A DNA stretch of 64,000 nucleotides, taken from NCBI GenBank assembly GCA_902800395.1, contig CADCEC010000004.1, positions 62,001 to 126,000 on the forward strand, read 5' to 3'. Under the pieces are notes generated by a model. That model made no database searches, was not told where the DNA came from, and worked only from the letters and a program-made list of their open reading frames with translations. Source of the stretch: an uncultured Bacteroidota bacterium (lineage in GTDB: Bacteria; Bacteroidota; Bacteroidia; Bacteroidales; P3). Below are positions 3,511-64,000 of the stretch, piece after piece; position 1 is the first letter of the stretch, and each line of letters begins with the position of its first letter. Made by a program: the position numbers and the translations under genes.

Positions 3511-3560
3511 TTTTTTCTTAGGTTTTCCTAGGATGTCCTAGGATGTCCTAGACTTTCCTA
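3511..3560. repeat. Five-unit 10-bp tandem array (core CCTA/CTAGG) filling an intergenic linker
   Basis: Five 10-bp units can be read directly: TTTTTTCTTA, GGTTTTCCTA, GGATGTCCTA, GGATGTCCTA, GACTTTCCTA. They fill nearly the whole linker between the Wzz-like gene and the O-antigen-ligase-like gene. The last unit contains the stop codon of the Wzz-like gene (CTA on this strand, TAG on the coding strand). It is one of many such arrays in the window. Confidence 0.85.
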
Positions 3561-4466
3561 TTCTTCTTTTTTGTTTGGGCAGAATATCAGCAGGCAGAAG
3601 ATGGCTACCACTACGGCACCGAGACTGCCACCAAGGATGATAAGCAGTCGTTTGGGATAGGCTTTTTTGTCAGCGGGAGTGGCGTAATCGACGCTGTATT
3701 TGTAGCTTACCTCCAAATTCTTGTCGATGCGCGTCTGCGTGGCACGGGTCTGAAGGTCAGCCAGCTGGGAGCATTTCTCGGCAATGAGTTTGTCTCGCCA
3801 GTCGGCTTTGGGCAGTTGTGCCAGCGAGTCAATTTCACGCTCCATAGAGGCGCAGACGCCATCCATCACCTCGGCTGCCGAGATGGCACGGTCGTGGTGA
3901 ATCTCGTGACACAGTGTGTCGTACATTGCGGCGATATAGTTGGCAATATCGGCGGCCCACTGAGGATCTTGGTCCAATACCCCAATCTCCACACCGAGGA
4001 ACTCGGTACGCTTCACCGTGATGTTGCTGCGGTATTGTTCGTCGAGTTTAAAGAGTTTGTGCTCGTTATCAGCAGGAATGCCATAGTGCTCCATGAGGTT
4101 GAAGTGGTCGCACACAGCCTGCTCCATACGTTTCGAACTGAGAATCTGGATGGCATACTCGCAATCGCGCTCGATACCATAGTCCATGAAGTCCAGACTA
4201 TAGTGGTAGTCCATGATGGCTTTACTGAGACGGTTCGAATTGGTGGGGAAAATCACCGCACTCGATTTGTAGAGGGGCTTGATGAGCCAGGCAGCAATGC
4301 CCGATCCAATGGCGCCAACAACGAAGACAATCAACAGCACTTTCCACCAGCGGCGGAAGAATTGGCGCGTAGCCTCGTGGTCATAATTATTTCCGAATCC
4401 TTTGCTTTCTTCTTGCATCATCTTTTCTCTTTTTATAGAATTATTCATTATATAACGCTTCTCCAT
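3558..4466 (-). CDS. Wzz/chain-length-determinant-like polysaccharide co-polymerase
   Basis: The 302-residue protein has a basic N-terminus, a transmembrane helix at about residues 40-62 (VLLIVFVVGAIGSGIAAWLI), a periplasmic alpha/beta region rich in charged helices, and a second transmembrane helix near the C-terminus (LLIILGGSLGAVVVAIFCLLIF). This two-helix layout is that of Wzz-type co-polymerases that set glycan chain length. No Walker motif or BY-kinase domain is present. An internal start at 4448 (MNNSIKRE) is about equally plausible. It is the first gene of the minus-strand surface group, with the ligase/polymerase gene next. Confidence 0.75.
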   Translation of the reverse strand: MEKRYIMNNSIKREKMMQEESKGFGNNYDHEATRQFFRRWWKVLLIVFVVGAIGSGIAAWLIKPLYKSSAVIFPTNSNRLSKAIMDYHYSLDFMDYGIERDCEYAIQILSSKRMEQAVCDHFNLMEHYGIPADNEHKLFKLDEQYRSNITVKRTEFLGVEIGVLDQDPQWAADIANYIAAMYDTLCHEIHHDRAISAAEVMDGVCASMEREIDSLAQLPKADWRDKLIAEKCSQLADLQTRATQTRIDKNLEVSYKYSVDYATPADKKAYPKRLLIILGGSLGAVVVAIFCLLIFCPNKKEE

Positions 4467-4511
4467 TGATATTATTGTTTTTTGAAAAAAATAAAAAAAA
4501 ATGAAAAAAAT

Positions 4512-4543
4512 TTTGTCAGTTTAAAAAATAGTATTACTTTTGC
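4512..4543 (+). promoter_or_regulatory. Bacteroidota-type promoter for the 811-residue barrel gene
   Basis: A -33 element TTTG (4512-4515) is followed after 19 bp by the -7 element TACTTTTGC (4535-4543). This matches the Bacteroidota housekeeping consensus TTTG-N19-TAnnTTTG. The predicted start of transcription is near 4550, about 70 bases before the ATG. Confidence 0.7.
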
Positions 4544-4620
4544 AGTGTTCTAGTTTACTAGTACACACGAATAAGATGTAAATTATAAACTGAAAAACAA
4601 ATAGATAGTAAAAAGCAACA

Positions 4621-7056
4621 ATGATTATGAAGAAGCTGTTTTTTGTTCTGTTGGCGATTTTTGCCACGATGGCCTCGGTCGAGGCGCAGAATTTTAAGGT
4701 GAAGGGTAGTGTCCGCGATGCCAAGACCGGCGAAGCGCTGCCGTTCGTCAACGTGGGACTCATGCGTACCACCGACACCGTCTTCGTGCGTGGAGCCGCT
4801 ACCGACATGCAGGGCCGTTTCGTTATCGAGGACGTGAAATCCGGCGACTACCTCATGCAGGCCTCCTGTGTGGGCTATGAGAGTTACACCAAAGACCTTA
4901 AGGTAGTTAAGGACATTAAGGATCTTAAGGTGGAACTCAAGAGTGGCACGCAGCTCGAGACCGTGGAGATTACTGCCGAGAAGCCTCTCTATGTGATGGA
5001 CGGTGAGAAGAATATGTACAATGCCAGCGAGGATGTCTCCATCCAGACCGGCACCGCCAGCGATGCTCTGCAGAACGCCCCTGGCGTCGAGGTGGATGCC
5101 GAGGGTAACATCACCTTGCGTGGTGTCTCGAGTGTGGAAATCTGGATTAACGATCGCCCCTCGCACATGAACGAAGAGGCTTTGAAGCAGTATATCAAGC
5201 AGCTGCCTGCCAATGCCATCGAGCGCATTGAAGTCATTACCAATCCCTCGGCACGCTACTCCACCTCCGGCGGCGTTATCAATATCGTCACCAACCAGAA
5301 GATTACGCGCAACGAGTTACTTTGTGTGGGTGTGCGAGCCACCACCACACCGGCCATCTCGCCTTGGGTCTCCTATGTGTGGGCCAACGAGAAGGTGGAC
5401 TTCAACTTTTATCTCAACGGCAATTACGCCACCCACGACATGGATGCCGACGGCACCAGCACCCTCTATGCTCCCAACGGCGACACCAGCCGCTATCAGA
5501 GCTTTAAGACCGAGAGTCGCAACCCCAATGTCGGTGGTTACGTGGGCTTTAACATGAACTGGAACATCGACAGTGTGACACACCTCTCGGCCTGGTTGGG
5601 CGCCTATCCTGGCTGGAGCTGGGGACACGGCCAAAGTGACTATATCTACCGTGAGTATAATATGACTGGAGGTACGCCTGCGTACCAAGACTTGAGCTAT
5701 TTCGATACTGTGCGTGACCACAACTTCTGGGGCGGCGGCTATGCCGGCGCTTGGTTCGAGCATCGCTACGACACCACGGGCCGAAAACTCAGCCTCACAT
5801 TCAATGGTAACCTCTGGAGCAGCGATGGCGACAACGAACGCTGGCGCCGTTATTCTAGCATTGCGTCAAAAAACTTCGATCGGAAAGGGTCTAGCTTCTA
5901 TTTCGGTCCCAGTGCCAGCATTGGTGCCAACTACACCCTGCCGCTGAAGAACAACTTCGAGATGGAGATGGGTGTCGAGATGGGCTACAGCCATAATGTC
6001 ACCGAGATGGGGCTCGACAGCCTCGCCGGCACCACCTGGAACAACATGGGGCTGCGCTCTTACCGTGCTGAAGGCAACGGTTGGAGTCCCGAGGCCTATG
6101 TCACCGTGCAGAAACGCTGGGGTGGCTTCACCGCCAAGTTGGGTCTCCGCGCTGAAAGCACCATCATGGGCGGCACCCTCAAACATAACAGTGATGTTAC
6201 GGCCCTCGAAATCGACACCGCCTTCTTCGGCCTCGTGCCCAGCATCCACCTGAGCTACCAGACACAGAACTTCACCTCCTACAGCCTCAGCTATACGCTC
6301 CGTTTCTCCGACCCCAGCGACCTCGCTGACCTCACCAACCTCTTCCGCATCTATGATGATTATAGCTACAGCACCGGCAATCCCAACCTGCTGCGTGCAT
6401 ACACCCACAATTTCGAGGCGGCTTGGAACAAGTACCTCATGGGCTTCGGTAATATCGGCCTCAATGCTTATGTGCGTGCCAACACCAACGAGCGCGGCAC
6501 CATGACTTCCACCGACACCGATCCCAACATCGGCACTTATCTGGTGAATTACAGCTATCCCGTCAATATCGGGATGAGCCACACCGAGGGCATCGAGGCC
6601 AACATCACCTATCGTCCCACGGGATTCTTCAACATTCGTTTCAACGCTTCGGTGTTCAACTACGGCTACGACTACGATGGCGACAAGGACAGCCGTGTGA
6701 GCTGGAGTGCCCGAATCAATCTTTGGGCCAAGCTGTGGGAGAAGCTCGAGGTCTTCGCCAACGCACGCTACACCTCGCCTCGTCTGGGCCTTTATAGTCT
6801 CAGCAACGCACAGAAGAGTATCGACTTTGGCGTGAGCAGCGATTTCTTTGATCGCCAGTTGAGCCTGTTCCTCAACGTCAACGACATCTTCGGCTGGAGC
6901 GAGTGGGGTAGCAACACCACGGCCCCCAGTTATCAGACCACCGGCAGTACCCGCTTCAACTCGCGCTTCGTCAGCGTCGGCCTCACCTGGCGTATCGGCA
7001 AGATGGAACTCGAGAGCAAAGCCCGCCAGGGTGCCACCGACACGCCGCAGATGTAG
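4621..7056 (+). CDS. Outer membrane beta-barrel protein with carboxypeptidase-regulatory-like domain (TonB-receptor-like)
   Basis: The 811-residue protein has a signal peptide (to about residue 22, ...VEAQ), a carboxypeptidase-regulatory-like beta-sandwich at about 24-105 (FKVKGSVRDAKTGEALPFVNV), a plug-like segment at about 118-213 (SDALQNAPGVEVDAEGNITLRG, then IERIEVITNPSARY), and a long barrel. This architecture is the outer membrane beta-barrel family of Bacteroidota, related to TonB-dependent receptors. No SusD-like partner is adjacent, so a glycan-uptake role is not indicated and the substrate is unknown. An in-frame 9-bp array encodes the LKVVKDIKDLKV stretch at about residues 93-104. 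Confidence 0.85.
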   Translation: MIMKKLFFVLLAIFATMASVEAQNFKVKGSVRDAKTGEALPFVNVGLMRTTDTVFVRGAATDMQGRFVIEDVKSGDYLMQASCVGYESYTKDLKVVKDIKDLKVELKSGTQLETVEITAEKPLYVMDGEKNMYNASEDVSIQTGTASDALQNAPGVEVDAEGNITLRGVSSVEIWINDRPSHMNEEALKQYIKQLPANAIERIEVITNPSARYSTSGGVINIVTNQKITRNELLCVGVRATTTPAISPWVSYVWANEKVDFNFYLNGNYATHDMDADGTSTLYAPNGDTSRYQSFKTESRNPNVGGYVGFNMNWNIDSVTHLSAWLGAYPGWSWGHGQSDYIYREYNMTGGTPAYQDLSYFDTVRDHNFWGGGYAGAWFEHRYDTTGRKLSLTFNGNLWSSDGDNERWRRYSSIASKNFDRKGSSFYFGPSASIGANYTLPLKNNFEMEMGVEMGYSHNVTEMGLDSLAGTTWNNMGLRSYRAEGNGWSPEAYVTVQKRWGGFTAKLGLRAESTIMGGTLKHNSDVTALEIDTAFFGLVPSIHLSYQTQNFTSYSLSYTLRFSDPSDLADLTNLFRIYDDYSYSTGNPNLLRAYTHNFEAAWNKYLMGFGNIGLNAYVRANTNERGTMTSTDTDPNIGTYLVNYSYPVNIGMSHTEGIEANITYRPTGFFNIRFNASVFNYGYDYDGDKDSRVSWSARINLWAKLWEKLEVFANARYTSPRLGLYSLSNAQKSIDFGVSSDFFDRQLSLFLNVNDIFGWSEWGSNTTAPSYQTTGSTRFNSRFVSVGLTWRIGKMELESKARQGATDTPQM
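4897..4932. repeat. In-frame 9-bp array (NTTAAGGNN x4) inside the barrel-protein gene
   Basis: The units CTTAAGGTA, GTTAAGGAC, ATTAAGGAT and CTTAAGGTG are consecutive and in frame, each encoding a hydrophobic-Lys-Asp/Val triplet. A related unit occurs in the ileS array at 62062-62097. Confidence 0.8.
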
Positions 7057-7101
7057 TTAATAGATAATAGTTAAAAGATAATAGTTTAAAAAGATAGTAT
7101 T
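7054..7101. repeat. 7-bp tandem array spanning the stop codon to the next start codon
   Basis: After the TAG stop (7054-7056) the linker reads TTAATAG, ATAATAG, TTAAAAG, ATAATAG, TTTAAAA and then a degenerate remainder up to the ATG at 7102. The heptamer period places stop codons in several frames. Confidence 0.8.
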
Positions 7102-7416
7102 ATGAAACTTGTAACAGTAGAAACCCTTCAGGGTGTGAATTATGAAGAATTGGGTGTCGTCACCGGCAGCACCATCCAGAGCAAGAACATGTTTGCTGAC
7201 TTCGGTCAGGGATTGAAGAGTATCGTGGGCGGTGAGCTGAAGAGCTACACCGGAATGATGGACAAGGCCCGCGAGATGGCCACGCAGCGTATGGTGGACC
7301 AGGCTGTCCGCATGGGCGCTGATGCCATTATTGGCGTGCGCTACACCACCAACAGCATCATGGCGCAGGCCGCCGAGGTGCTGGTGTTTGGTACGGCGGT
7401 GAGATATAAGAACTAG
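7102..7416 (+). CDS. YbjQ/UPF0145 family protein
   Basis: The 104-residue cytoplasmic protein covers the full length of the YbjQ (UPF0145, heavy-metal-binding-domain-like) family. Diagnostic stretches are TGSTIQSKNMFADFGQGLKSIVGGEL near the N-terminus and GADAIIGVRYTTNSIM near residues 73-88. The family forms small pentameric beta-structures of unknown function; the metal-binding idea comes from fold annotation, not biochemistry. It lies between the barrel gene and an ABC transporter, all plus strand. Its TAG stop is the first CTAGT of the following tandem array. Confidence 0.88.
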   Translation: MKLVTVETLQGVNYEELGVVTGSTIQSKNMFADFGQGLKSIVGGELKSYTGMMDKAREMATQRMVDQAVRMGADAIIGVRYTTNSIMAQAAEVLVFGTAVRYKN

Positions 7417-7455
7417 TAAAACTAGTCTGACTAGTCGAACTAGTATAACTAGAAA
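7411..7455. repeat. Five-unit 9-bp array (NACTAGTNN) beginning in the last sense codon of ybjQ
   Basis: The units AACTAGTAA, AACTAGTCT, GACTAGTCG, AACTAGTAT and AACTAGAAA follow one another without gaps. The stop codon of the YbjQ gene (7414-7416) is within unit one, and the next gene starts 12 bp after the array. The core CTAG is palindromic. Confidence 0.85.
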
Positions 7456-7467
7456 AAAGATTAAGCC

Positions 7468-17118: not shown

Positions 17119-18519
17119 ATGAAACTGCAATTTATGGGTGCCACCCGCGAGGTGACGGGTAGCAAACACATGATAACCACCAAAAGCGGTCTGAAGATTT
17201 TGCTCGACTGCGGTATGTATCAGGGTAAAGGTCTCGAGACTGATGCCATGAACCGCGACCTCGGATTCAATCCTTCGGAAATAGACTATCTCATCCTTAG
17301 TCACGCCCATATCGACCACTCAGGTCTCATCCCCTACATCTACAAGAACGGTTTCCGCGGCACGGTGCTTTGCACTCCCGCCACCCGTGACCTCTGCGCC
17401 ATCATGCTGGCTGACGCCGGCCGTATCCAGATGCAGGATACTCAGACATTCAACAAGAAACGTAAGGCTCAGGGACTCGACCCAGTGGAGCCTATCTATG
17501 ACGAGCAGGACGCCCAGGCTTGCATGAGTTGCTTCATCAGCGTGCCCTACCACAAAAAATTCAACATCGAAGGCGAGGTGACGGTGGAATTTTTTGATGC
17601 CGGCCACATCCTTGGCTCCGCCCTCGTCTACCTCGAAATCAAGGACGGCCGACGCAAGATACGTCTAGGCTTCACTGGTGATATCGGCCGCTACGACAAG
17701 CAGATACTCAAAGATCCCGAACCGTTCCCGCAGGTCGACTACCTCATCATGGAGAGTACCTATGGTGACCGCCTGCATGAGAGTCTCCAGAACGCCGAGC
17801 AGGAGTTGCTGATGGCGGTGCTCGACACTTGCACCAAGAAAAAAGGTAAACTTATCATCCCCAGTTTCGCTATCGGCCGTGCTCAGGAGATTATCTATGC
17901 TCTCGATCGTCTGGAGCATGCCAAATTGTTGCCCGATATCGACGTCTTTGTTGACAGTCCGCTGAGCGTCAGCGCTACCAATATCATGCGTCTGCACACA
18001 GAAAGCTTCAATGACGATATCGCGGAGTATTGCAAAACGGACCCCGACCCCTTCGGGTTTGACCGTCTGCACTACATCCAGAGCGTGATGGAGAGCAAGC
18101 AGCTCAATATACGCCACAAACCCTGTGTTATCATCGCCGCCAGCGGCATGATGGAAGCCGGTCGCGTGAAGCACCATCTGGCCAACCACATAGAAAATCC
18201 CTCCACCACCATCCTCTGCGTGGGCTACTGCGAGCCCTCGACGCTGGGAGCTAAGATTATGCGTGGTGACGAGGAGGTGAGTATTTTCGGCCAGCGCCAC
18301 AAGGTGCGCGCTGAATTGAGGAGGATTGATTCCCTCTCAGGTCACGGCGATTATAAGGAGATGATGCATTATATCGGCTGTTTGGACAAGAAGAAAGTCA
18401 AAGGGCTCTTCCTTGTCCATGGTGAGGAGGAGACGCAGAAGCATTTTGCCGAAACCTTAGCTGCCGATGGTTGGAAGCATATCACCATACCCACATTCCG
18501 CGAAGAAGTTGAGATTTAG
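17119..18519 (+). CDS. MBL-fold beta-CASP RNA-processing nuclease (CPSF73-like)
   Basis: The 466-residue metallo-beta-lactamase-fold hydrolase has the metal motif SHAHIDHSG (about 59-67), further ligands in FDAGHILGSA and FTGDIGR, and the beta-CASP region starting at MESTYGDRLH. Motif C lies in ASGMMEAGR with the downstream RMMA/RNA-specificity domain (IDSLSGHGDYKEM, FLVHGEEETQKHF). Such enzymes are predicted zinc-dependent RNases related to CPSF73. It is the first gene of a plus-strand run ending at 21524. Its stop codon lies inside a 7-bp tandem array. Confidence 0.92.
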   Translation: MKLQFMGATREVTGSKHMITTKSGLKILLDCGMYQGKGLETDAMNRDLGFNPSEIDYLILSHAHIDHSGLIPYIYKNGFRGTVLCTPATRDLCAIMLADAGRIQMQDTQTFNKKRKAQGLDPVEPIYDEQDAQACMSCFISVPYHKKFNIEGEVTVEFFDAGHILGSALVYLEIKDGRRKIRLGFTGDIGRYDKQILKDPEPFPQVDYLIMESTYGDRLHESLQNAEQELLMAVLDTCTKKKGKLIIPSFAIGRAQEIIYALDRLEHAKLLPDIDVFVDSPLSVSATNIMRLHTESFNDDIAEYCKTDPDPFGFDRLHYIQSVMESKQLNIRHKPCVIIAASGMMEAGRVKHHLANHIENPSTTILCVGYCEPSTLGAKIMRGDEEVSIFGQRHKVRAELRRIDSLSGHGDYKEMMHYIGCLDKKKVKGLFLVHGEEETQKHFAETLAADGWKHITIPTFREEVEI

Positions 18520-18549
18520 TCAATAGTTGATAATTAACAATTAACAGTT
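18515..18549. repeat. 7-bp tandem array between the beta-CASP and endonuclease genes
   Basis: The units TTTAGTC, AATAGTT, GATAATT, AACAATT and AACAGTT run from just before the TAG stop (18517-18519) to the TTG start at 18550. The linker consists entirely of the array. Confidence 0.78.
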
Positions 18550-19817: not shown

Positions 19818-20665
19818 TGAAAAGCACACAGGAACTTCAGCAGATTGCGACGCAGGTGCGCCGCGACATTTTGAGAATGACCACCAATGCCAAGAGCGGT
19901 CACCCGGGCGGCTCGCTCGGCACCGCCGACTGGTTCGTGGCCATGAATTTTAACCTCTTGGACTTCGACCCGAAGAACTTCACCATGAGCGGCGAGGGCG
20001 AGGACATGCTCTTCGTCTCCCAGGGTCACATCACCCCGGTCATCTACAGCACTATGGCCCGCCGCGGCTACTTCCCCGTCTCTGAACTTGCCACGTTTCG
20101 CAAGTTCGGCACCCGTCTGCAGGGTCACCCCTCCACCGAGCATGGCCTGCCGGGCATCCGCATGGCCAGTGGTTCGCTGGGTCAGGGTATGAGCGTCGGT
20201 GTTGGCGCCGCCCTCGGCAAGAAGATGACGGGTGACAAACACCTCGTCTACACCATGCACGGTGACGGTGAGTTGGAGGAAGGTCAGATTTGGGAGGCCG
20301 TCATGTTCGCTGGCGCCAAGAAGGTCGACAACCTCATTGCCACTATCGACTACAACAACCAGCAGATCGATGCTACCGTCGACGAGGTGATGACTCTCGG
20401 CGACCTCAAGGCCAAGTTCGAGAGTTTCCTCTGGAAGGTCGTTGTGATTGAGAACGGTAACGACATGCAGCAGGTGCTTGACGGTATGGCCAAAGCCAAA
20501 CAGATGAGTGGCCAGGGCGCACCGGTGTGCGTCATCCTCAAGACCAAAATGGGCTTCGGTGTCGACTTTATGCAGGACACCAACAAGTACCACGGCTCCG
20601 TCCTCTCGGCCGACGACCTCCCCAAGGCCCTCGCCCAGCTCCCCGAGACCCTCGGCGACTTCTGA
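19817..20665 (+). CDS. Transketolase, N-terminal (thiamine-diphosphate-binding) subunit
   Basis: The 282-residue protein corresponds to the N-terminal half of transketolase. It contains AKSGHPGGSLGTADW (about 23-37), SQGHITPVIYS, HGLPGIRMASGSLGQGMSVGVGAALG and the thiamine-diphosphate motif GDGELEEGQIWEAVMFAGAKKVDNLIATIDYNN. In split transketolases a separate C-terminal (pyrimidine-binding) subunit normally follows directly. Here the next gene is a peroxiredoxin, and no C-terminal half occurs in the window, so it must be elsewhere or the function has diverged. The pathway would be the non-oxidative pentose phosphate pathway. Confidence 0.9.
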   Translation: MKSTQELQQIATQVRRDILRMTTNAKSGHPGGSLGTADWFVAMNFNLLDFDPKNFTMSGEGEDMLFVSQGHITPVIYSTMARRGYFPVSELATFRKFGTRLQGHPSTEHGLPGIRMASGSLGQGMSVGVGAALGKKMTGDKHLVYTMHGDGELEEGQIWEAVMFAGAKKVDNLIATIDYNNQQIDATVDEVMTLGDLKAKFESFLWKVVVIENGNDMQQVLDGMAKAKQMSGQGAPVCVILKTKMGFGVDFMQDTNKYHGSVLSADDLPKALAQLPETLGDF

Positions 20666-20688
20666 AGAATTAAGAGTTAAGAGTTATG
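20661..20688. repeat. 7-bp array containing both the stop and the next start codon
   Basis: The four units TCTGAAG, AATTAAG, AGTTAAG and AGTTATG contain the transketolase TGA stop (unit 1) and the ATG of the peroxiredoxin gene (unit 4, 20686-20688). Confidence 0.75.
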
Positions 20689-26849: not shown

Positions 26850-26920
26850 AATATTCTTGGTCTATATTCTCTCCAGTGATGATAGATGTTCTTCTCAGAG
26901 ATGATAGTTATTCTTTGGAA

Positions 26921-26975
26921 TCTTCCTTAAGGTTCTCTGCGGAGTTCCTTAAGATTCTCTGCAGAGTTCCTTAAG
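26921..26975. repeat. Five-unit 11-bp array alternating CTTAAG and CTGCAG cores
   Basis: The units TCTTCCTTAAG, GTTCTCTGCGG, AGTTCCTTAAG, ATTCTCTGCAG and AGTTCCTTAAG alternate two palindromic cores. They occupy most of the spacer between the di-haem protein stop and the ccsBA start. Confidence 0.8.
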
Positions 26976-26992
26976 GAAGATTTCCGAGGGGG

Positions 26993-28555
26993 TTAAATTG
27001 CATTGATGAACTTCACCACGGCGTCGCGGTCCTCCTTGCTGAGCTGGCGGAACTTTTCCACGCTCCAGCGGGCGTCGCTCTGGGCGGAGCCGTGCCACAT
27101 GATGGCCTCGATGACGTTGCGGGCGCGACAGTCGTGCAGACGGTCGGCGTGGCCGGAGCAGATGGGCGCCAGGCCGCGGCCCCACAGCGGGGTGGTGCGG
27201 CACCAGCCGGTGCGGATGTCGTTCACCATGAAGAGGCGGTGCTGCACCATGTCGGTGTAGGGCCAGATCTTCTGGTAGGGGTAGCGCGGCAGGCGGGAGT
27301 CGCCGTCGCTGAAGAAGCCGTTGGGGTCGGTGAAGTTGTCGGGACCCGTCTCCCAGCTGGGCCGGTGGCAGGTGGCGCAACCCGACTCGATGAAGAGGCG
27401 CTTGCCGCGCTGCACCTCGGCGTCGGTGATGTTGCGGGCGGCGGGGACGGCCAGGCCGCGGTGCCACACCATGAAGTTGACATAGTCCTGGTCGCTCATC
27501 TCGACGGGCAGCTCGGTGGAGGTGAGGTAGTTGTAGATGTCCTGCTGCACGTTGCCGGTGCGGTTCCACTCGGGGAAGTACTGGTAGAACTGGGCCTGCA
27601 CGTCGGGGTCCTGCGAGGCGGCGGTAGCGTAGATGGTGGGGGCGAGGCTGAGATAGTGCTTGCGGCGGTCGCTGCGGGTGACGTTGGTGATGTTCCAGAT
27701 GGCGTTGGCGCCGGCGGCATCCTGCAGGGGACCGCGGCTGAGGGCGTAGGTGAAGCGCTTGGGATGTGTGGTGTTGCCGTAGAGTGAGGCCCAGTCGCCG
27801 CCGGCCCAGATGGCGGGATTGAGGGTGGCGCCAGCCTGCTGCTCACGCAGATACTGCGCCTTCAGCGAGTCGTCGGGGATGGCGTCGAGGAGGCCCGTGC
27901 CGTAGATGCCGATGGTGCTCTCTAGGCGGAAAGCCAGCTGGGCGTAGGGCGTGGAGAGCGGGGCGTAGAAGGCATCCTCGGGGATGTTGACTTCGGGGTA
28001 GATGAGGTCGTAGGTCTCGCCGTCGGGGAAGCGGTTGCCCCAGTCGTCGGTGTAGGGCAGCCAGGCGATGGTGATTTTCTCCTCGTCGATAGAGGGCTTG
28101 AAGGGTGCCACGGCCTTGGTCTGCGGCATACCGGCCACGGAGCTCTCGTAGGCGTTGGTGGCACTGTTGTAGACCACCAGCAGGTAGCCGTTGCCCCAGT
28201 CGTCGGCACGGTAACGCTCCATGCGGCGGCCGTGTCCGTAACCTGGGTGGCAGCTCTCACAACTGGAGCGCACGTAAAGGGGCCCGAGGCCGTTGAAGGG
28301 CGGGTTGTTCTGCGTCACCGTGTGCTCGAAGAACATCTCACCATACTTAAAGGCGTTGACCATGCCGGCGTTGACTACGGCGGGTGTGGGGTCTTCATAG
28401 GCCGAGGCCGACTGGTTGAAGGTGGTGCCGAGCAGTCCGCCGGCGTAGGTCTCCTCGCTGACACCTTCAGGAGCAGGAGTAGGCTCTTTCTCGTCGCGGT
28501 TGCATGCGGCGAATAGCATCACCGCCGCTGACAAAAATATTGCTAACTTTTTCAT
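26993..28555 (-). CDS. Di-haem oxidoreductase-like c-type cytochrome (DHOR family), lipoprotein
   Basis: The protein is 520 residues from the MKKLAIF start, with a lipobox ending LFAAC. Two c-type haem sites are visible: SSCESCHPGYGHG (about 97-109) and SGCATCHRPSWETG (about 388-401). The block AQLAFRLESTIGIYGTGLLDAIPDD and the C-terminal RTTPLWGRGLAPICSGHADRLHDCRARNVIEAIMWHG match the DHOR (putative thiol oxidoreductase) family, distantly related to MauG. Its neighbours are imelysin and a porin, a grouping typical of iron-regulated loci, plus CcsBA downstream for haem attachment. The actual redox substrate is unknown. Confidence 0.88.
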   Translation of the reverse strand: MKKLAIFLSAAVMLFAACNRDEKEPTPAPEGVSEETYAGGLLGTTFNQSASAYEDPTPAVVNAGMVNAFKYGEMFFEHTVTQNNPPFNGLGPLYVRSSCESCHPGYGHGRRMERYRADDWGNGYLLVVYNSATNAYESSVAGMPQTKAVAPFKPSIDEEKITIAWLPYTDDWGNRFPDGETYDLIYPEVNIPEDAFYAPLSTPYAQLAFRLESTIGIYGTGLLDAIPDDSLKAQYLREQQAGATLNPAIWAGGDWASLYGNTTHPKRFTYALSRGPLQDAAGANAIWNITNVTRSDRRKHYLSLAPTIYATAASQDPDVQAQFYQYFPEWNRTGNVQQDIYNYLTSTELPVEMSDQDYVNFMVWHRGLAVPAARNITDAEVQRGKRLFIESGCATCHRPSWETGPDNFTDPNGFFSDGDSRLPRYPYQKIWPYTDMVQHRLFMVNDIRTGWCRTTPLWGRGLAPICSGHADRLHDCRARNVIEAIMWHGSAQSDARWSVEKFRQLSKEDRDAVVKFINAI

Positions 28556-28558
28556 TTC

Positions 28559-28607
28559 AATTCTCAATTTTTAATTCTCAATTCTCAACTCTCAATTCTC
28601 AATTATT
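28559..28607. repeat. 7-bp array (AATTCTC) between the imelysin and DHOR genes
   Basis: Six units, AATTCTC, AATTTTT, AATTCTC, AATTCTC, AACTCTC, AATTCTC, and a partial AATTATT run from next to the DHOR start to inside the imelysin gene. The imelysin TGA stop (28599-28601) is within a unit. The same heptamer forms the in-frame array at 39230-39257. Confidence 0.88.
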
Positions 28608-37199: not shown

Positions 37200-37231
37200 T
37201 TTGCCATATCAGAAAAATATCGTATTTTTGC
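37200..37231 (+). promoter_or_regulatory. Promoter of the QueG-like gene pair
   Basis: TTTG (37200-37203), exactly 19 bp, then TATTTTTGC (37223-37231), a full consensus match. Because it lies downstream of an in-frame ATG at 37188, it fixes the true start at 37260. Confidence 0.72.
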
Positions 37232-37259
37232 AAAATCAATCAAGACGATAATCCAAACT

Positions 37260-38770: not shown

Positions 38771-38782
38771 TCAATACGAAAT

Positions 38783-40045: not shown

Positions 40046-40066
40046 CCATTTCCGCCATAAAACAAG

Positions 40067-40092
40067 AAAGGGCGTCCAGTAGGACGCCCTTT
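40067..40092. terminator. Bidirectional terminator between the permease and hydrogenase operons
   Basis: A perfect 11-bp stem, AAAGGGCGTCC (40067-40077) and GGACGCCCTTT (40082-40092), has a 4-nt loop AGTA. T-rich sequence follows on the plus strand (ACTTTTGC), and TTTCTTGTTTT follows on the minus strand. It probably serves both convergent operons. Confidence 0.8.
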
Positions 40093-40098
40093 ACTTTT

Positions 40099-40115
40099 GC
40101 AGGCGGGACGCCTGC
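40099..40115. repeat. Short GC-rich palindrome next to the terminator
   Basis: GCAGGCG-GGA-CGCCTGC forms a perfect 7-bp stem with a 3-nt loop. It resembles repetitive extragenic palindromes, but I saw no exact second copy in the window. Confidence 0.4.
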
Positions 40116-40126
40116 GTACCCGGGAT

Positions 40127-40603
40127 TTATTTGTACTCGGCGATGATGCCGGGGACCATGTCGGGGGTGAGACGGCCGTAGACCTTGTCGCCAATCATGG
40201 CGACGGGGGCGAGACCGCAGGCACCGACGCAACGGAGGGTGTTCAGCGAGAACTTGCCGTCGGGGGTGCACTTGCCGACCTGGATGCCCAGATTACGCTG
40301 GAAGGCATCGAGGACCTTCTCGGCGCCACGCACGTAGCAGGCGGTACCGAGGCAGATGTCGATGGGGTGCTCGCCCTTGGGCTCCATGGTGAAGAAGCTG
40401 TAGAAGGAGACGATACCATAGACCTTGGCCACGGGCATGTTCAACTCGTGGGCGACGACTTCCTGGACCTCGGCGGGGAGGTAGCCGAACTTGCCCTGCA
40501 CCTGGTGGAGGACGTTGATGACCTCACCGGCACGGTTACCAAAGCTCTTGCAGATGTCTTTGATAACGTTGATCTTATCTTCAGAAATTTTGATGTTTGC
40601 CAT
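40127..40603 (-). CDS. hndA: NuoE/HndA-type 2Fe-2S subunit of NAD(P)-linked hydrogenase
   Basis: The 158-residue subunit has a helical N-terminus and a thioredoxin-like 2Fe-2S domain with cluster ligands in CLGTACYVRGA (about 83-93) and LRCVGACGLAP (about 123-133). This is the C-x4-C ... C-x3-C pattern of NuoE/HydC/HndA. In trimeric or tetrameric [FeFe]-hydrogenases it carries electrons near the flavin subunit. It is the last gene of the operon, separated from the catalytic subunit by a 144-bp spacer containing paired tandem arrays. Confidence 0.92.
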   Translation of the reverse strand: MANIKISEDKINVIKDICKSFGNRAGEVINVLHQVQGKFGYLPAEVQEVVAHELNMPVAKVYGIVSFYSFFTMEPKGEHPIDICLGTACYVRGAEKVLDAFQRNLGIQVGKCTPDGKFSLNTLRCVGACGLAPVAMIGDKVYGRLTPDMVPGIIAEYK

Positions 40604-40619
40604 TGTTCTTTTATTTTGG

Positions 40620-40736
40620 GGAGTTAAAGAATTTAAAGTAGTTATCGCTCGCTGTGCTCGCTAGGAGTTAAAGACAAATGTACTGGACGGTGCTATTGTC
40701 TCTAACTTCTTTTACTTCTATAACTTCTTTAACTCC
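40620..40736. repeat. Inverted pair of 9-bp arrays in the hndD-hndA spacer
   Basis: The left array is GGAGTTAAA, GAATTTAAA, GTAGTTATC (40620-40646) and the right array is TCTAACTTC, TTTTACTTC, TATAACTTC, TTTAACTCC (40701-40736). The first left unit is the exact reverse complement of the last right unit. The core between them contains AGACAA...TTGTCT, which could close an inner stem. The spacer in the mRNA should fold back on itself. Confidence 0.75.
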
Positions 40737-40747
40737 CATTGATTACT

Positions 40748-42541: not shown

Positions 42542-42556
42542 CTTTTTATTCTTTTT

Positions 42557-42670
42557 GGAGTTAGAGGGAGATAGAGGGAGATAAGGGAAGATAGAGGACA
42601 ATACCTTTTGCTGATGTGTGCATTTGTCCGTTATCTCCTTTTATCTTCTTTTATCTTCCGTTATCTTCCA
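42557..42670. repeat. Inverted pair of 10-bp arrays in the hndC-hndD spacer
   Basis: The left array is GGAGTTAGAG, GGAGATAGAG, GGAGATAAGG, GAAGATAGAG (42557-42596) and the right array is TTATCTCCTT, TTATCTTCTT, TTATCTTCCG, TTATCTTCCA (42631-42670). They are mutually complementary, and GGACAA...TTGTCC bounds the 34-nt core. The architecture is the same as in the next spacer of the operon, but with a different unit and period. Confidence 0.8.
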
Positions 42671-42682
42671 TTTATCATTATT

Positions 42683-44497: not shown

Positions 44498-44509
44498 GAT
44501 TTAAAAGTC

Positions 44510-44905
44510 TTATTTGTCAATGGTTTCGTAGTTGACGGGGATGATGCCCTCGACGAGTTCGCCCTGCTGGACATACTTGGTGAGGATTTCATCGGCGCGG
44601 TTGTTGTCGACGTGGCCGAAGACGATGGGGTCTTTGCCGGGGACGCGCACCTCGAGGGTGGGCTCAGCGTGGCAGTAGCCCATGCAACCCGTCTGGGTGA
44701 ACACGGCCTGGATGCCCAACTCGTCGGCTTTCTGCATCATGTGTTCCATAACCTGCTTGGCACCGGCGGCGATACCGCAAGTGGCCATAGCGACCTTGAT
44801 CTGCACCAGGCTCTCAGGGTTCTCGGCCTTCTCACGAATGTCGAGATTGTTCTGGAGCTTCTCGCGCATGGCTTTCAGGTCAGCCAAAGATTTAACTTTT
44901 GTCAT
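44510..44905 (-). CDS. hndB: HndB-type 2Fe-2S ferredoxin-like subunit
   Basis: The 131-residue protein has an N-terminal helical segment and a thioredoxin-like 2Fe-2S domain with cysteines in ATCGIAAGAKQ and TGCMGYCHAEP. This is the arrangement of HndB of the tetrameric Desulfovibrio hydrogenase. It is the first gene of the operon hndB-hndC-hndD-hndA on the minus strand; in the Desulfovibrio operon the NuoE-like subunit comes first. The gene fixes the complex as four-subunit Hnd type rather than trimeric HydABC. Confidence 0.88.
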   Translation of the reverse strand: MTKVKSLADLKAMREKLQNNLDIREKAENPESLVQIKVAMATCGIAAGAKQVMEHMMQKADELGIQAVFTQTGCMGYCHAEPTLEVRVPGKDPIVFGHVDNNRADEILTKYVQQGELVEGIIPVNYETIDK

Positions 44906-44989
44906 AGATGTGACTTTTTAGGATTAATATTATTATTATTTAACTAATTATCAATAGCATACGCAGGCTTACGCTTGGGTATGACGGGA

Positions 44990-44997
44990 CAAATATA
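44990..44997 (-). promoter_or_regulatory. Candidate promoter of the hydrogenase operon
   Basis: The minus strand reads TATATTTG, matching TAnnTTTG, giving a predicted start near 44987 and a leader of about 80 bases. No TTTG at the -33 distance is seen, so activation by a bound regulator would make sense. Confidence 0.45.
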
Positions 44998-45038
44998 CAA
45001 AATAAAAATGACATTCTGCCACTTTTAGCAAAATTTTC

Positions 45039-45054
45039 TCACCAATAATGGTGA
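45039..45054. promoter_or_regulatory. Operator-like dyad TCACCA-N4-TGGTGA upstream of the hydrogenase operon
   Basis: TCACCA-ATAA-TGGTGA is a perfect 6+6 inverted repeat, centred at 45046.5, about 60 bp upstream of the predicted hydrogenase start. That is close to the class I activator position (-61.5). The same half-sites and the same 4-bp spacing occur upstream of the porin-imelysin operon (31130-31145). Confidence 0.55.
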
Positions 45055-45120
45055 CCCCCTTAATCCTGCTTAACATAACCTTAAGAACGGGGGTTGATTT
45101 TCAGGTTATTAAGTGCATAA

Positions 45121-48160: not shown

Positions 48161-48742
48161 ATGAAACGTAATATAGCGGTTTTCTGTGGTTCTTCGATGC
48201 CTCACAACCCTAAGATTGTAGCTGCGGCTCGTGAGTTGGGACGGCGTCTCGCCGAAGAGGGGGATGCGTTGGTATACGGAGGTAGCAACCTCGGTCTGAT
48301 GGGAGTGGTGAGCAGTGCTGCCCTCGAGGCTGGCGGACATGTGATAGGGGTGATTCCCACGCTCTTCAGCGAAGATATCATCCGCTCGCAGACGGTCAGC
48401 GAGTTGGTGCGTGTCGGCACCATGGCTGAGCGCAAGGAGCGCATCCTGGCGGCCTGCGATGCCTTTATTGCCCTGCCCGGCGGCATAGGCACCATCGACG
48501 AGATGTCAGAGGTGATGGTGATGAATCAGTTGCAGATAGTGGAAGGTCAGCGGTTGCTGGACGGCAGCTATAAAACTAAGCCGATGATACTCCTGAATAT
48601 CGATGGTTACTATGACCCTTTCCTTGAACAGATGCGAGTGGTCAAAGAGGAAGGCTTGATGCGCTCGGATGCCGGGTTAGTGGCTGCTGGCTCGGTTCTA
48701 GATGTTCTAGAAATTCTAGAGCATCTAGATAATCTAGATTAA
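48161..48742 (+). CDS. LOG-family nucleotide 5'-monophosphate phosphoribohydrolase
   Basis: The 193-residue Rossmann-fold protein of the LOG/YgdH-like group (TIGR00730) is annotated as a cytokinin riboside 5'-monophosphate phosphoribohydrolase. In bacteria it probably hydrolyses AMP-like nucleotides. Motifs are AVFCGSS at the N-terminus and the active-site PGGIGTIDEMSEV (about 107-119). The last 15 residues (VLDVLEILEHLDNLD) are encoded by a 9-bp tandem array that runs on past the stop codon, so the C-terminus appears to be grown from the linker. Confidence 0.9.
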   Translation: MKRNIAVFCGSSMPHNPKIVAAARELGRRLAEEGDALVYGGSNLGLMGVVSSAALEAGGHVIGVIPTLFSEDIIRSQTVSELVRVGTMAERKERILAACDAFIALPGGIGTIDEMSEVMVMNQLQIVEGQRLLDGSYKTKPMILLNIDGYYDPFLEQMRVVKEEGLMRSDAGLVAAGSVLDVLEILEHLDNLD

Positions 48743-48748
48743 CTAGAA
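48695..48748. repeat. Six-unit 9-bp array (NNTCTAGAN) crossing a stop codon
   Basis: The units GTTCTAGAT, GTTCTAGAA, ATTCTAGAG, CATCTAGAT, AATCTAGAT and TAACTAGAA are consecutive. The first five are read in frame as the C-terminus of the LOG protein, the sixth contains its TAA stop, and the next ATG is three bases after the array. Confidence 0.9.
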
Positions 48749-48751
48749 AAA

Positions 48752-59923: not shown

Positions 59924-59928
59924 AGCCG

Positions 59929-60450: not shown

Positions 60451-60515
60451 ATTGCTGTAAATCAATATTTTTGCGTTACTAAACATTTCTGTGTTGAAAA
60501 ATAATTATGTTAAAT

Positions 60516-60547
60516 TTTGTCAATTCGAAGAATATTCTTATCTTTGC
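60516..60547 (+). promoter_or_regulatory. Promoter of the small barrel protein gene
   Basis: TTTG (60516-60519), exactly 19 bp, then TATCTTTGC (60539-60547), a full consensus match. It sets the start at 60592 rather than at an upstream in-frame codon. Confidence 0.72.
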
Positions 60548-60591
60548 AATCGAAAACAAAACATTTTTTTATTAACCTAAAATTCAAAAAA

Positions 60592-61098: not shown

Positions 61099-61120
61099 AC
61101 CAATGTGATACAATCTTTTG

Positions 61121-61154
61121 TGCGGGGCGGCCATCCGGCCGCCCCGCATTTTTT
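61121..61154 (+). terminator. Terminator of the small barrel protein gene
   Basis: A perfect 12-bp GC-rich stem, TGCGGGGCGGCC (61121-61132) and GGCCGCCCCGCA (61137-61148), has loop ATCC and is followed by TTTTTT. Confidence 0.92.
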
Positions 61155-61199
61155 GTCTGTATAATACGTTGTTACGTAATCAATTGTACACTCGTTGTT

Positions 61200-61256
61200 C
61201 AGTATTTGTTCAGTATTTGTTCAGTGAATCACTGAACAAATACTGAACAAATACTG
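61200..61256. repeat. 26-bp perfect inverted repeat built from 11-bp units
   Basis: The arms (61200-61225 and 61231-61256) are perfectly complementary with loop GAATC. Each arm is itself a tandem of the 11-mer CAGTATTTGTT (2.4 units). No T tract follows, so a simple terminator is unlikely. It lies between the small barrel protein gene and ileS. Confidence 0.88.
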
Positions 61257-61422
61257 TATAACAGACGAATAATTAGGCTTTTTGATAGCAGATAGATTGT
61301 CCTCAATATTTGATGAAAAAAAAGCTGTACGGTTCAAATAATTTTTGTATTTTTGTAATTTATTCCGTTGCCTTCTTTTGAGGGCAATGGGTTGATTGTG
61401 AATATATAAATATAATATAATA

Positions 61423-64000
61423 ATGAAGTACAACGAGTATAAGCAACTTAATTTGACCCAGATTGGGCAGGATGTGCGCCGCTACTGGGAGGAGAACGAG
61501 ACTTTCGAGAAAGGACAGAAACTGGCCGAAGGGCATCCCGCCTATGTGTTCTACGACGGTCCTCCGAGTGCCAATGGCAAGCCCGGCATCCACCATGTGA
61601 TGGCTCGCACCATCAAGGATGTCTTCTGCCGCTACAAAGCGCAGAAGGGCTACTTCGTCGACCGCAAGGCAGGTTGGGACACCCACGGTCTCCCTGTGGA
61701 ACTGGGTGTGGAGAAGAATCTCGGCATCACCAAGGAGGACATCGGCAAGAAGATAAGCGTGGATGACTACAACCGCGCCTGCCGCGAGGAGGTGATGAAG
61801 TACAAGGAGCTGTGGGACGAGCTGACGCGTGTGATGGGCTACTGGGTCGACCTCAAGGACCCCTATATCACCTTCAACAACGAGTACATCGAGACCCTGT
61901 GGTTCCTACTGAAGAAACTCTACGACAAGGGCCTGCTCTACAAGGGCTACACCATCCAGCCCTATAGTCCCGCCGCCGGTACGGGCCTTTCGAGCCACGA
62001 GCTTAATATGCCTGGCTGCTACCGCGATGTGAAAGACACGACTTGTGTCGCCATGTTCAAGATTAAGGACCTTGAGGACGCTAAGGACCTTATGGACATG
62101 CCTACCTACGCCATCGCTTGGACTACCACTCCCTGGACGCTGCCTTCGAACACTGCCCTCTGCGTGGGTCCCAATATCGACTATGTCACCATCGAGACCA
62201 CCCATCCCTACAAGGAGACGCCCTGCCGCATCATCATGGCCAAGGCTCTGGTGGGTTCGATGTTCCCCGAGGGTAAGTCGCCCGAATACAAGATTGTCGG
62301 CGAGTGCAAGGGTAAAGACCTTGAGGGTCTGCACTATGAGCAACTTATCCCCTGGGTGAAACCTACCGAGGTGAGCGATAAGGGTTCGTTCCGCATCATC
62401 CTTGGCGACTACGTGACCACCGAGGATGGTACCGGTATCGTGCATATCGCCCCCACCTTCGGTGCCGACGACGCCCGTGTGGCCAAGAAGGCCGGCATCG
62501 GCGACCTGCTGTTCTTCGACCGCGACGGCAAGCAGCTGCCCATGGTCGACAAGCAGGGCCGCTTCGCCCCCGTCGAGGATCTCGACCCCGAATGGGTGAA
62601 GGCCAATGTGAATGTTGAAGAATACAGCAAGTATGCCGGCAAGTTTGTCAAGAACGCCTACGACCCCACCAAGGGCGAGAAGGACATGAGCCTCGACGTG
62701 GAGTTGGTCATCATGCTCAAGGAGCAGGGCAAGCTCTTCAAGAGCGAGAAGCACACGCACAGCTACCCTCACTGCTGGCGTACCGACAAGCCCGTCCTCT
62801 ATTACCCCCTCGACAGCTGGTTCATCCGCACCACGGCCCTCAAGGAGCGCATGATAGAACTCAACAAGACCATCAACTGGAAGCCCGAAGCCACCGGCAG
62901 CGGCCGCTTCGGCAACTGGCTGGAGAATATCGTCGACTGGAATCTCAGCCGCAGCCGCTACTGGGGCACCCCGCTGCCCATCTGGCGCACCGAGGACGGC
63001 AAGGAGGAGAAGTGCATCGGCAGCGTGAAGGAGCTGAGCGCCGAAATCGAGAAGGCCGTCAAGGCCGGTCTCATGACCTCGAATCCCTATGCTGGCGACT
63101 ACAAGGACTTTGACCTCCATCGTCCCTATATCGACAACGTCATTCTGGTCAGCGATAGCGGCAAGCCCATGCGCCGTGAGCCGGACCTCATCGACGTGTG
63201 GTTCGACAGTGGCGCTATGCCTTACGCCCAGATACACTACATGGGCGGCGAGCTGAAGCCCACCGAGTTCCCGGCCGACTTCATCGCCGAGGGCGTCGAC
63301 CAGACCCGCGGCTGGTTCTACACGCTCCACGCCATCGGCACCATGTGCTTCGACAGCGTGGCGTTCAAAAATGTCATCTCCAACGGCCTGGTGCTCGACA
63401 AGAACGGCAACAAGATGTCGAAGCGCCTCGGCAATGCCGTCGACCCCTTCGAGACCCTCGGCAAGTACGGCCCCGACGCCACCCGCTGGTATATGATTAC
63501 CAACAGTCAGCCGTGGGACAACCTGAAGTTCGACGTCGAGGGTGTCGACGAGGTGCGCCGCAAACTCTTCGGCACGCTGTACAACACCTACAGCTTCTTC
63601 GCCCTCTATGCCAACCTCGACGGCTTCGACTACAGCCAGAAGGACCTCGACATCAAGGAGCGTCCCGAGATTGACCGCTGGATACTCTCCGAGCTCAACA
63701 CGCTGGTGAAGACCGTCGGCGACGCCATGGAGGACTACGAGCCTACCCGCGCCGGCCGCGCCATCGGCACCTTCGTGGATGCCTACCTCAGCAACTGGTA
63801 CGTGCGTCTCTGCCGTCGTCGCTTCTGGAAGGGCGAGATGACCGCCGACAAGGTCAGCGCCTACCAGACGCTCTACACCTGCCTCGAGACCCTCAGCCGC
63901 CTTATGGCCCCCATCGCCCCCTTCTTCAGCGAGAGGATGTTCCTCGACCTCAACGCCGTCACCAAGCGCTACGATGTCGAGTCCGTCCATCACCTCGGCT
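61423..64000 (+). CDS. ileS: Isoleucyl-tRNA synthetase (3'-truncated by window)
   Basis: The open frame runs from the ATG at 61423 to the window end, about 859 residues of the usual 1,100 or more for this form. The Rossmann motifs are PPSANGKPGIHHVMART (HIGH variant) and NKMSKRLGNAVDP (KMSKS variant). The editing domain has AIAWTTTPWTLPSNTALCVGP and GTGIVHIAPTFGADD. DVWFDSGAMPYAQ and the anticodon-binding helices follow. The enzyme charges tRNA-Ile. A 9-bp in-frame array (IKDLEDAKDLMD) lies in the insertion before the editing domain. A TATTTTTG element at 61348-61355 may be its promoter. Confidence 0.96.
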   Translation, partial: MKYNEYKQLNLTQIGQDVRRYWEENETFEKGQKLAEGHPAYVFYDGPPSANGKPGIHHVMARTIKDVFCRYKAQKGYFVDRKAGWDTHGLPVELGVEKNLGITKEDIGKKISVDDYNRACREEVMKYKELWDELTRVMGYWVDLKDPYITFNNEYIETLWFLLKKLYDKGLLYKGYTIQPYSPAAGTGLSSHELNMPGCYRDVKDTTCVAMFKIKDLEDAKDLMDMPTYAIAWTTTPWTLPSNTALCVGPNIDYVTIETTHPYKETPCRIIMAKALVGSMFPEGKSPEYKIVGECKGKDLEGLHYEQLIPWVKPTEVSDKGSFRIILGDYVTTEDGTGIVHIAPTFGADDARVAKKAGIGDLLFFDRDGKQLPMVDKQGRFAPVEDLDPEWVKANVNVEEYSKYAGKFVKNAYDPTKGEKDMSLDVELVIMLKEQGKLFKSEKHTHSYPHCWRTDKPVLYYPLDSWFIRTTALKERMIELNKTINWKPEATGSGRFGNWLENIVDWNLSRSRYWGTPLPIWRTEDGKEEKCIGSVKELSAEIEKAVKAGLMTSNPYAGDYKDFDLHRPYIDNVILVSDSGKPMRREPDLIDVWFDSGAMPYAQIHYMGGELKPTEFPADFIAEGVDQTRGWFYTLHAIGTMCFDSVAFKNVISNGLVLDKNGNKMSKRLGNAVDPFETLGKYGPDATRWYMITNSQPWDNLKFDVEGVDEVRRKLFGTLYNTYSFFALYANLDGFDYSQKDLDIKERPEIDRWILSELNTLVKTVGDAMEDYEPTRAGRAIGTFVDAYLSNWYVRLCRRRFWKGEMTADKVSAYQTLYTCLETLSRLMAPIAPFFSERMFLDLNAVTKRYDVESVHHLG
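62062..62097. repeat. In-frame 9-bp array in ileS
   Basis: The units ATTAAGGAC, CTTGAGGAC, GCTAAGGAC and CTTATGGAC encode IKD-LED-AKD-LMD just before the editing domain. The unit resembles the NTTAAGGNN unit at 4897-4932. Confidence 0.78.

Follow-up and report, generated by a model that had tools for sequence, protein, structure and literature searches.

The stretch analysed here (the window, 64,000 nucleotides) corresponds to positions 62001-126000 of contig C4 of G000, a metagenome-assembled genome (MAG) of 2.41 Mb in 21 contigs. Protein matches and relatives of the window belong to uncultured, mostly rumen, Bacteroidales; close named records include the MAGs RUG12171 and RUG156; Candidatus Colimorpha is more distant, at 75% identity. 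Our subject is the short tandem arrays and hairpins that occupy linkers between co-directional genes, above all the three linkers (s1, s2 and s3) of an operon encoding a putative NADH-dependent [FeFe]-hydrogenase.

Linkers of the hydrogenase operon

The HydA-like gene of this operon scores 854.8 bits (cutoff 765), its NuoF- and NuoE-like neighbours score below their cutoffs, and the operon was matched in 107 of 119 genomes of the genus. Comparison of the window with the relative G090 revealed an approximately 89-98% identical block in which three successive operon junctions differ by whole inserts. s1 and s2 are filled in G000 and short in G090, and s3 is short in G000 and filled in G090. The aligned regions are positions 37220-45056 of the window and G090:C12:49804-57317, and the ABC gene of the two species, used as background, is 86.7% identical. 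The three junctions of the window are as follows.

40604..40747, minus strand: hairpin element s1, with a left arm of 9-bp units (AGTTAAAGA), the centre GACAATAGCACCGTCCAGTACATTTGTC and a complementary right arm (fold z -8.0)
42542..42682, minus strand: hairpin element s2, with arms of 10-bp units and a centre of the same type as that of s1
44498..44509, minus strand: junction s3, empty in the window and filled in relatives

The three linkers were compared in 58 of the 107 matching genomes, and the counts given here cover all 58. An array was defined throughout by a lag-match score of at least 12 at periods of 5-14, and linker families were built by single linkage (at least 80% identity over at least 50% of the shorter sequence). 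Among 166 species-linkers, two of which (s1 of G072 and G008) do not start at a stop codon owing to the anchor, 37 are short (40 bp or less) and 129 are filled (45-173 bp), and the filled linkers fall into 59 sequence families. Arrays are present in 87 of the 129, against 0.35 expected from shuffles, with periods of 7, 8, 9 and 10 bp and lags of 13 and 14. At s1, 50 of 55 genomes have a filled linker. The s2 element is missing from G071, G075, G080 and G090 and present in G087 and G043. s3 is filled (59-173 bp) in 38 of the 53 genomes scored, with an array in 27 of these 38.

Linkers that differ in kind commonly separate genes that are nearly identical. Among 121 species pairs with 95% identity or more in both flanks, 92 have linkers of different kinds (11/17, 48/63 and 33/41); the species in these pairs are not independent, so the counts are descriptive and carry no exact probabilities. 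Similarity breaks off at the stop codon and picks up again at the ATG. In 93 such pairs, selected under a slightly different flank rule, the shared stretch counted from the stop codon inclusive has a median of 4 nt (range 2-12), and that leading up to the ATG inclusive a median of 3 nt (range 3-18). The flanks of s2 in G068 and G114, for example, differ at 1 of 280 and 2 of 280 bases, and the linkers between them are unrelated. Different sites share a family in 17 of 99 comparisons within a species and in 145 of 5409 between species. Higher sharing within a species is expected if families spread within genomes.

Hairpin arms and shared centres

Most filled linkers are predicted to be strongly structured. 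The fold z-score is below -2 in 115 of the 129 (median -4.2) and, on average, in 54 of the 59 families, and at s1 this applies to all 50 filled linkers (median -6.6). Reversing one half of each sequence, which keeps the repeats and removes their complementarity, changed the mean energy from -25.8 to -15.5. Among the sequences inspected by eye, the usual architecture is a left array that leads through a GC-rich centre to a right array, whose units are complementary to those of the left. CTAG or GTCNGAC motifs occur three or more times in 25 of the 129 filled linkers, and such palindromic units serve as both arms. The last 15 nt before the ATG are rich in A (1293 of 1935 bases). An earlier reading of the window, made from the sequence alone, had proposed that the arrays provide unstructured AT-rich starts, which fits the linear heptamer arrays but not the strongly structured hydrogenase linkers, although these do have the A-rich 15 nt.

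Intrinsic terminators (a GC stem followed by a T run) were rejected as an account of the hairpins, as no terminator-like site is present in s1 or s2 of the window and only 2 of the 129 filled linkers have four or more consecutive T within their last 25 nt. Rfam gave no match at gathering score over the elements in the window, L208 or L151. Elsewhere in L151 (2952-3011), close to a copy of the 9-bp element, a SAM-II (S-adenosylmethionine) riboswitch match exceeds the gathering score.

A GACAATA...CATTTGTC-like centre adjoins the left array in 18 distinct sequences, 11 of them from G000. In most of the 18, both arms are of the 9-bp AGTTAAAGA type or the 10-bp GGAGATAAAA type, and in G043 both arms are built from another 9-bp unit, GGAGTTCAA. 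In three mixed elements (L164, L174 and L163) the left arm has units of 7 or 8 bp (GGAGACA and GGAGATAA types) and the right arm is built of 9-bp TTTAACTTC units. Within the linker at L032:16260, GACAATA connects a heptamer array (TAGWTAA) to a TTCTTTAAC right arm.

Longer gaps (window 61195-61256, L051 16844-17324 and L049 9439-9716) hold another dispersed family of hairpins, distinct from these. It consists of 11-bp arrays of the TTGTTCAGTAT type that face their reverse complement across a short loop.

Tandem arrays in co-directional gaps

Array density was scored in the window together with 20 stretches of 20 kb from the same MAG (the G000 sample, 464 kb in total). Genes were called with a purpose-built simple model, which yielded 388 genes and 87.5% coding sequence; on 45 kb of Escherichia coli with 46 annotated genes the same caller found 43, all 43 at the annotated 3' end. 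The G000 sample has 367 gaps, of which 314 are co-directional, and scoring was confined to gaps of 12-600 bp. Arrays were found in 64 of 203 co-directional gaps, against approximately 0.5 in total in dinucleotide shuffles, and in 5 of 203 random coding segments matched to the gaps in length. The sequence-only reading had claimed that operon linkers are enriched in arrays of variable unit, and had named a density no higher than that of shuffled sequence as evidence to the contrary; the enrichment is borne out. Divergent and convergent gaps have arrays in 7 of 43 cases (Fisher p=0.063 against co-directional gaps), and when gaps of at least 60 bp are considered the counts are 44 of 120 co-directional against 6 of 37 divergent and convergent (p=0.026).

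Other members of the group gave 36/155, 57/279 and 57/418 gaps with an array in three sets of loci, some of which overlap and the third of which extends to distant relatives. For the control, 19 other families of the class supplied 20 stretches (one family is used twice and one stretch is from the same order), with the gene caller trained on each stretch alone; two of these stretches had poor coding density and one of the two lacked any gap. Arrays occur in 6 of 150 control gaps and in 0 of 18 gaps of E. coli. The enrichment is strong in this group and weak outside it.

Period 7 or 14 accounts for 36 of the 64 arrays in the G000 sample. Arrays are anchored to stop codons, with 27 of the 64 starting within 3 nt of one (random placement 14.8, maximum 23 in 5000 trials), and no anchoring to start codons was detected (19 of the 64 against 18.3 by random placement). 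Stop triplets within the arrays number 321 in the sense direction, 259 in antisense and 246 after shuffling, and all three frames contain stops in 40 of the 64 on the sense strand and in 34 on the antisense strand. Sense stops outnumber antisense stops in 33 arrays and the reverse is seen in 24, with no significant bias (p=0.29). Stops in several frames, as had been predicted, are thus present, but their excess in the sense direction is modest and constitutes weak evidence of selection for stops. Palindromic cores, described earlier as frequent, do occur but are the exception in this MAG, where at least three CTAG, CTTAAG or CTATAG cores are found in 4 of the 64 array linkers.

Eight arrays of the window had been singled out as filling the linker between two genes. 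Tandem Repeats Finder (TRF) recovers all of them, some at another period or weakly.

3503..3560, minus strand: 10-bp array with core CCTAGG, extending from the stop codon of 3558-4466 into the linker that precedes 2066-3505 (TRF 3514-3560; array score 23; fold z -4.3)
7054..7090, plus strand: 7-bp TAGWTAA array, starting at the TAG stop codon of 4621-7056, in the linker to 7102 (TRF and array score)
7411..7457, plus strand: 9-bp array of ACTAGT and three free bases, including the stop codon of 7102-7416 (TRF and array score)
18515..18549, plus strand: weak 7-bp repeat after the stop codon of 17119-18519 (sub-threshold array score of 11; TRF 2.1 copies, score 30)
20663..20688, plus strand: 7-bp array across stop codon, linker and start codon (TRF and array score)
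26911..26976, minus strand: 22-bp repeat in which two palindromes take turns every 11 bp, within the linker 26823-26992 (TRF period 22, score 70; linker fold z -5.3)
28548..28604, minus strand: 7-bp AATTGAG array, including the stop codon of 28599-29753 (TRF and array score)
48696..48749, plus strand: 9-bp TCTAGA array, mainly within the reading frame 48161-48742, with the stop codon in its last units (TRF)

The upstream stop codon lies inside or at the edge of the array at five of these loci (3511, 7054, 7411, 20661 and 28559), as claimed, and at 20661 the array also contains the following ATG. The other three differ. The array at 26921 does lie away from the stop codon but is better described by its 22-bp period than by an 11-bp unit, and that at 18515 is weak. 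At 48695 the array does not fill the linker, since the linker is only 9 bp long; its first five units encode the last 15 residues of the upstream product, which ends in VLDVLEILEHLDNLD before the stop codon. This linker is under the 12-bp minimum, and the array is therefore outside the 203 scored gaps. Positions 48696-48742 are accordingly an intercistronic repeat read as coding sequence, giving a leucine- and acid-rich C-terminal tail to a putative lysine-decarboxylase-like (LOG-type) protein.

Conservation among relatives varies by locus. Over 37 positions the array at 7054 has one difference from that of G071 and two from that of G087; the array at 7411 is identical at 31 of 32 positions in G071, with flanking genes 73-89% identical in both cases; at 7411, G087 has a different 8-bp array and an insert. 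By eye, the 7054 array is missing at that place in most other relatives, and related heptamers are found in L012. The array at 3503..3560, which lies in the linker between Wzz and Wzy, is one 10-bp unit shorter in G090, has variant spacers in G087 and could not be aligned in G071, and several relatives have other palindromic 9-bp arrays in this linker (TCTAGA, ACTAGT, CTATAG and TTCNGAA). The repeat at 18515 is not retained in the three relatives compared. Base-for-base conservation, which the sequence-only reading had expected not to find, is thus seen at some loci (7054 and 7411 in G071) but not at others, and the arrays at 7054, 7411 and 3503..3560 are, judging from these alignments, old.

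Different loci use the same units. Sorted by dominant rotation class, the 36 heptamer arrays make up 17 classes, against approximately 32 for shuffled arrays (minimum 25 in 2000 trials). Arrays of the TAGWTAA type are spread through a large part of the genome; pattern hits with up to two mismatches number 206 forward and 132 reverse, and the same pattern read backwards gives 87 and 94. A 9-bp family, to which the s1 element belongs, has 28 hits, and the best 14 of these, which were examined, each cover at least 100 of 144 positions with 73-100% identity. All 14 lie between co-directional genes (background 314/367 gaps), 11 are within 20 bp of both neighbours, and their orientations are 11 against 3. 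With units recurring among loci in this way, these are dispersed repeats and not independent products of local slippage.

Origin and meaning of the linkers

We propose, with a probability of roughly 0.55, that these linkers are sites of small exchangeable non-coding intercistronic elements built from short tandem repeats, comparable to miniature inverted-repeat transposable elements (MITEs) or repetitive extragenic palindromic (REP) elements. The complete form would be a hairpin within an insert of 45-173 bp, placed between the upstream stop codon and the A-rich stretch that precedes the next ATG; units of 7-10 bp form its left array, the centre is GC-rich, and the units of the right array are complementary. 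Where the units are palindromic (CTAG types and GTCNGAC), the array would be a compact version, with left and right units being one and the same. On this view a handful of linear arrays are half-elements or chimeras of hairpins, and most linear heptamer arrays would be linked to hairpins as well. The elements would spread within genomes as mobile or gene-converted DNA, and their arms would be renewed by unit duplication and copying between arms. Linkers may offer them a refuge, since an insertion at any other place in a genome that is 87% coding would be purged. A mild role as intercistronic RNA structure is possible, in processing, 3'-end protection or translational uncoupling. Such a function would explain why s1 is nearly always filled by some hairpin, and the filling of s1 in 50 of 55 genomes by folding, often unrelated sequence hints at a use for structure there. 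A stronger version, in which the operon linkers of this genus would be interchangeable cassettes, is tentative and somewhat unlikely. A dedicated process would swap the whole stop-to-start stretch for a different tandem-armed hairpin and renew the two arms together while their centre stays the same, and coupling between genes in operons would evolve through the exchange of ready-made spacers.

Several results count against exchangeable elements. No target-site duplication was seen by eye in filled and empty pairs, in which insertion boundaries cannot be set because the whole linker differs. No end motif or mobilising enzyme was identified, Y1 transposases being the only enzymes sought. Two Y1 genes are present in G000, and the one encoding 151 aa was matched in 60 of the 119 genus genomes (E<=1e-8). 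At the 29 of 30 loci whose flanks could be read, inspection by eye of 130 bp on each side revealed GCCCC-type hairpins, other hairpins or none, and no tandem-armed element, with one exception at the edge of L314, where there is a short GGAGATAA-like repeat. Y1 (HuH) transposases were rejected as the direct mobilising partner on these grounds. Native unit order pairs no better than permuted order (mean rank 0.47 over 70 elements; 17 families lie below 0.5 and 15 above it), which argues against base-level covariation in the stem and reveals no base-level selection for it. In the G000 sample (gaps of at least 25 bp, linkers of up to 260 bp), z is below -3 in 13 of 48 array linkers and 22 of 96 non-array linkers; array linkers are no more structured than others because many heptamer arrays are linear. 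The first bases of the hairpin centre, GACAA[AT], are touched by 9 of the 64 arrays in G000 (shuffled mean 0.6, maximum 5), but five of these nine are the hairpins that supplied the motif and one (L037:2972) has the motif in its own unit. The remaining three are the only linear or mixed arrays tied to hairpins in this way, the link between the two forms is thin, and the idea that linear arrays in general are half-elements was set aside.

The 151-aa Y1 HuH protein (L278, G000:C12:13176-13631, and L301-L330) carries the motifs DHVH and YIINQEEHH and resembles subclass 1.2, which is described as being without typical IS200 ends in the account of PMC6006769. GCCCCG-AGGGGC hairpins and CAGGCAGGGGT..ACCCCTG repeats lie alongside it at many of the 29 loci and are possibly cognate REPs. 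At L279:1222-1975 (G000:C3), a gene resembling those of REP-associated tyrosine transposases (RAYTs; NCBIfam REP_Tyr_transpos, below cutoff) has GGGCGTACACGGGGGTACGCCC-type repeats on both sides and is neighboured by GGGCGTACACGGG repeats. The GGGCGTACACGGGGGTACGCCC-type arrangement resembles that of REPINs (REP doublets forming hairpins) and is distinct from the tandem-armed elements.

A further difficulty is that the operon genes far exceed a background ABC gene in identity, for example with 96-99% against 86.7% between G068 and G114. This probably reflects recombination at the level of genes, and the linkers could then only look recently swapped. The hydrogenase genes have likely been exchanged recently among rumen Bacteroidales. 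Old, lineage-specific linkers would then separate genes homogenised by interspecies recombination that stops at the non-homologous linkers, an explanation that also accommodates the uneven gene-wise identities within one pair (G000-G080: A 97.2%, C 93.5%) and the reassortment of linkers in G087, where s1 is as in G071 and s2 as in G000. It fits less well with G043 and G068, in which the background ABC gene is 97.5% identical and the operon genes are 97.3-100% identical, yet s2 and s3 differ (s1 is the same) and, approximately 10 kb further along that contig, three more array linkers are unrelated, a pattern that favours change in the linkers themselves. Closeness is not uniform in this pair, whose flanks average 91.3% over 31 gaps, and its linkers of less than 0.6 identity comprise 6 of 17 without arrays, where flank identity is lower, and 4 of 11 with arrays; both figures weaken this argument. 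Homogenisation would, however, require recombination to end at almost every linker, and we consider it unlikely.

In-place slippage, by which each array would have grown from its own local sequence and been tolerated since linkers are non-coding, was the mechanism favoured by the sequence-only reading. The loss of one 10-bp unit at 3503..3560 in G090 relative to G000 agrees with it. Among the 44 of 102 arrays with enough units and differences for the test, variants were significantly concentrated at particular unit phases, as if variant units had been duplicated, in 7 of the 25 arrays of heptamers and in none of the 7 of period 8 or the 12 of period 9 or more (control 0/44); a conserved core with free spacers was rejected on the same result. 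No whole-unit change was seen among relatives at 7054 or 7411, where the arrays are stable base for base between species. Slippage is also at odds with the recurrence of units at unlinked loci in both orientations, with hairpins that share a centre and with unrelated linkers between near-identical flanks. As the general explanation it is quite unlikely, and it has a minor part; the observation that inspired it is mainly right and was understated.

Selected multi-copy binding sites, acting as palindromic DNA operators or as single-stranded RNA motifs recognised by an RNA-binding protein, are improbable: palindromic cores with variable spacers at some loci, the near-complete preservation of the 7054 and 7411 arrays, the different palindromic cores in the Wzz-Wzy linker of relatives and the anchoring to stop codons would suit them, but neighbouring genes differ in unit and period, as do different species at a single site, arrays lie in either orientation, and in none of the 12 arrays tested of period 9 or more was phase-restricted variation significant.

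Exchangeable tandem-armed elements have partial counterparts among known systems. BrickBuilt of Porphyromonas gingivalis is presented as a minisatellite-containing MITE with 23-bp units, a single family, positions 49-591 nt from genes and a GAAA target duplication (PMC4596501). The linkers resemble it in their Bacteroidales host, intergenic and dispersed location, tandem repeats housed in an element with short inverted ends, expansion by whole units, and filled and empty sites, which in BrickBuilt distinguish strains and here distinguish relatives; dispersed similar intergenic copies are provided by the 9-bp family (28 hits, best 14 examined). They differ from BrickBuilt in having units of approximately 7-11 bp, many families, mutually complementary tandem arms and differences that extend from stop to start. 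TAACTGA heptamers are reported from Beggiatoaceae, Cyanobacteria and five Bacteroidetes, in a study centred on one fixed unit with mention of other heptamers in some genomes (PMC4679880). They too are short intergenic direct repeats of heptamers, often beside a start codon, and that study discusses a post-transcriptional role as possible. In contrast, unit and period here vary per linker, arrays are anchored to stop codons, and many of the linkers are hairpins that differ wholly between species. Long simple sequence repeats (LSSRs), attributed to Mrazek and colleagues as cited in PMC4679880, have units of up to 11 nt, with heptamers commonest in most genomes, and are tied there to slippage. 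Tandem units in excess of chance, as in LSSRs and short tandemly repeated repetitive (STRR) sequences, were found here, and whole-unit change only at 3503..3560; the present linkers stand apart from LSSRs in forming families of dispersed copies, in having arms that complement each other and in being unrelated where the genes around them are alike. REP elements with Y1 (RAYT) transposases are described as dispersed intergenic hairpins, the REPs being 20-40 bp (PMC6006769). The linkers share the dispersed intergenic hairpin but are inserts of 45-173 bp reaching from stop to start, outside that size range, and the Y1 genes here are flanked by different hairpins, with no tandem-armed element at the loci inspected. 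A limited search of the open-licence PubMed Central literature found no description of tandem-armed linker hairpins. They are best read as a new form of dispersed intergenic hairpin with an unusual stop-to-start pattern of difference.

Linkers within operons set the translation of neighbouring genes and the processing of transcripts, and are commonly regarded as short, drifting spacers. In this group, which belongs to a phylum mostly without Shine-Dalgarno signals, they look like trading sites for ready-made repeat hairpins. Two questions follow, namely what enzyme builds hairpins with tandem arms and why the units of the two arms stay matched. Near-identical hydrogenase genes joined by dozens of different linkers amount to a natural experiment, in which the effect of intercistronic structure is directly measurable.

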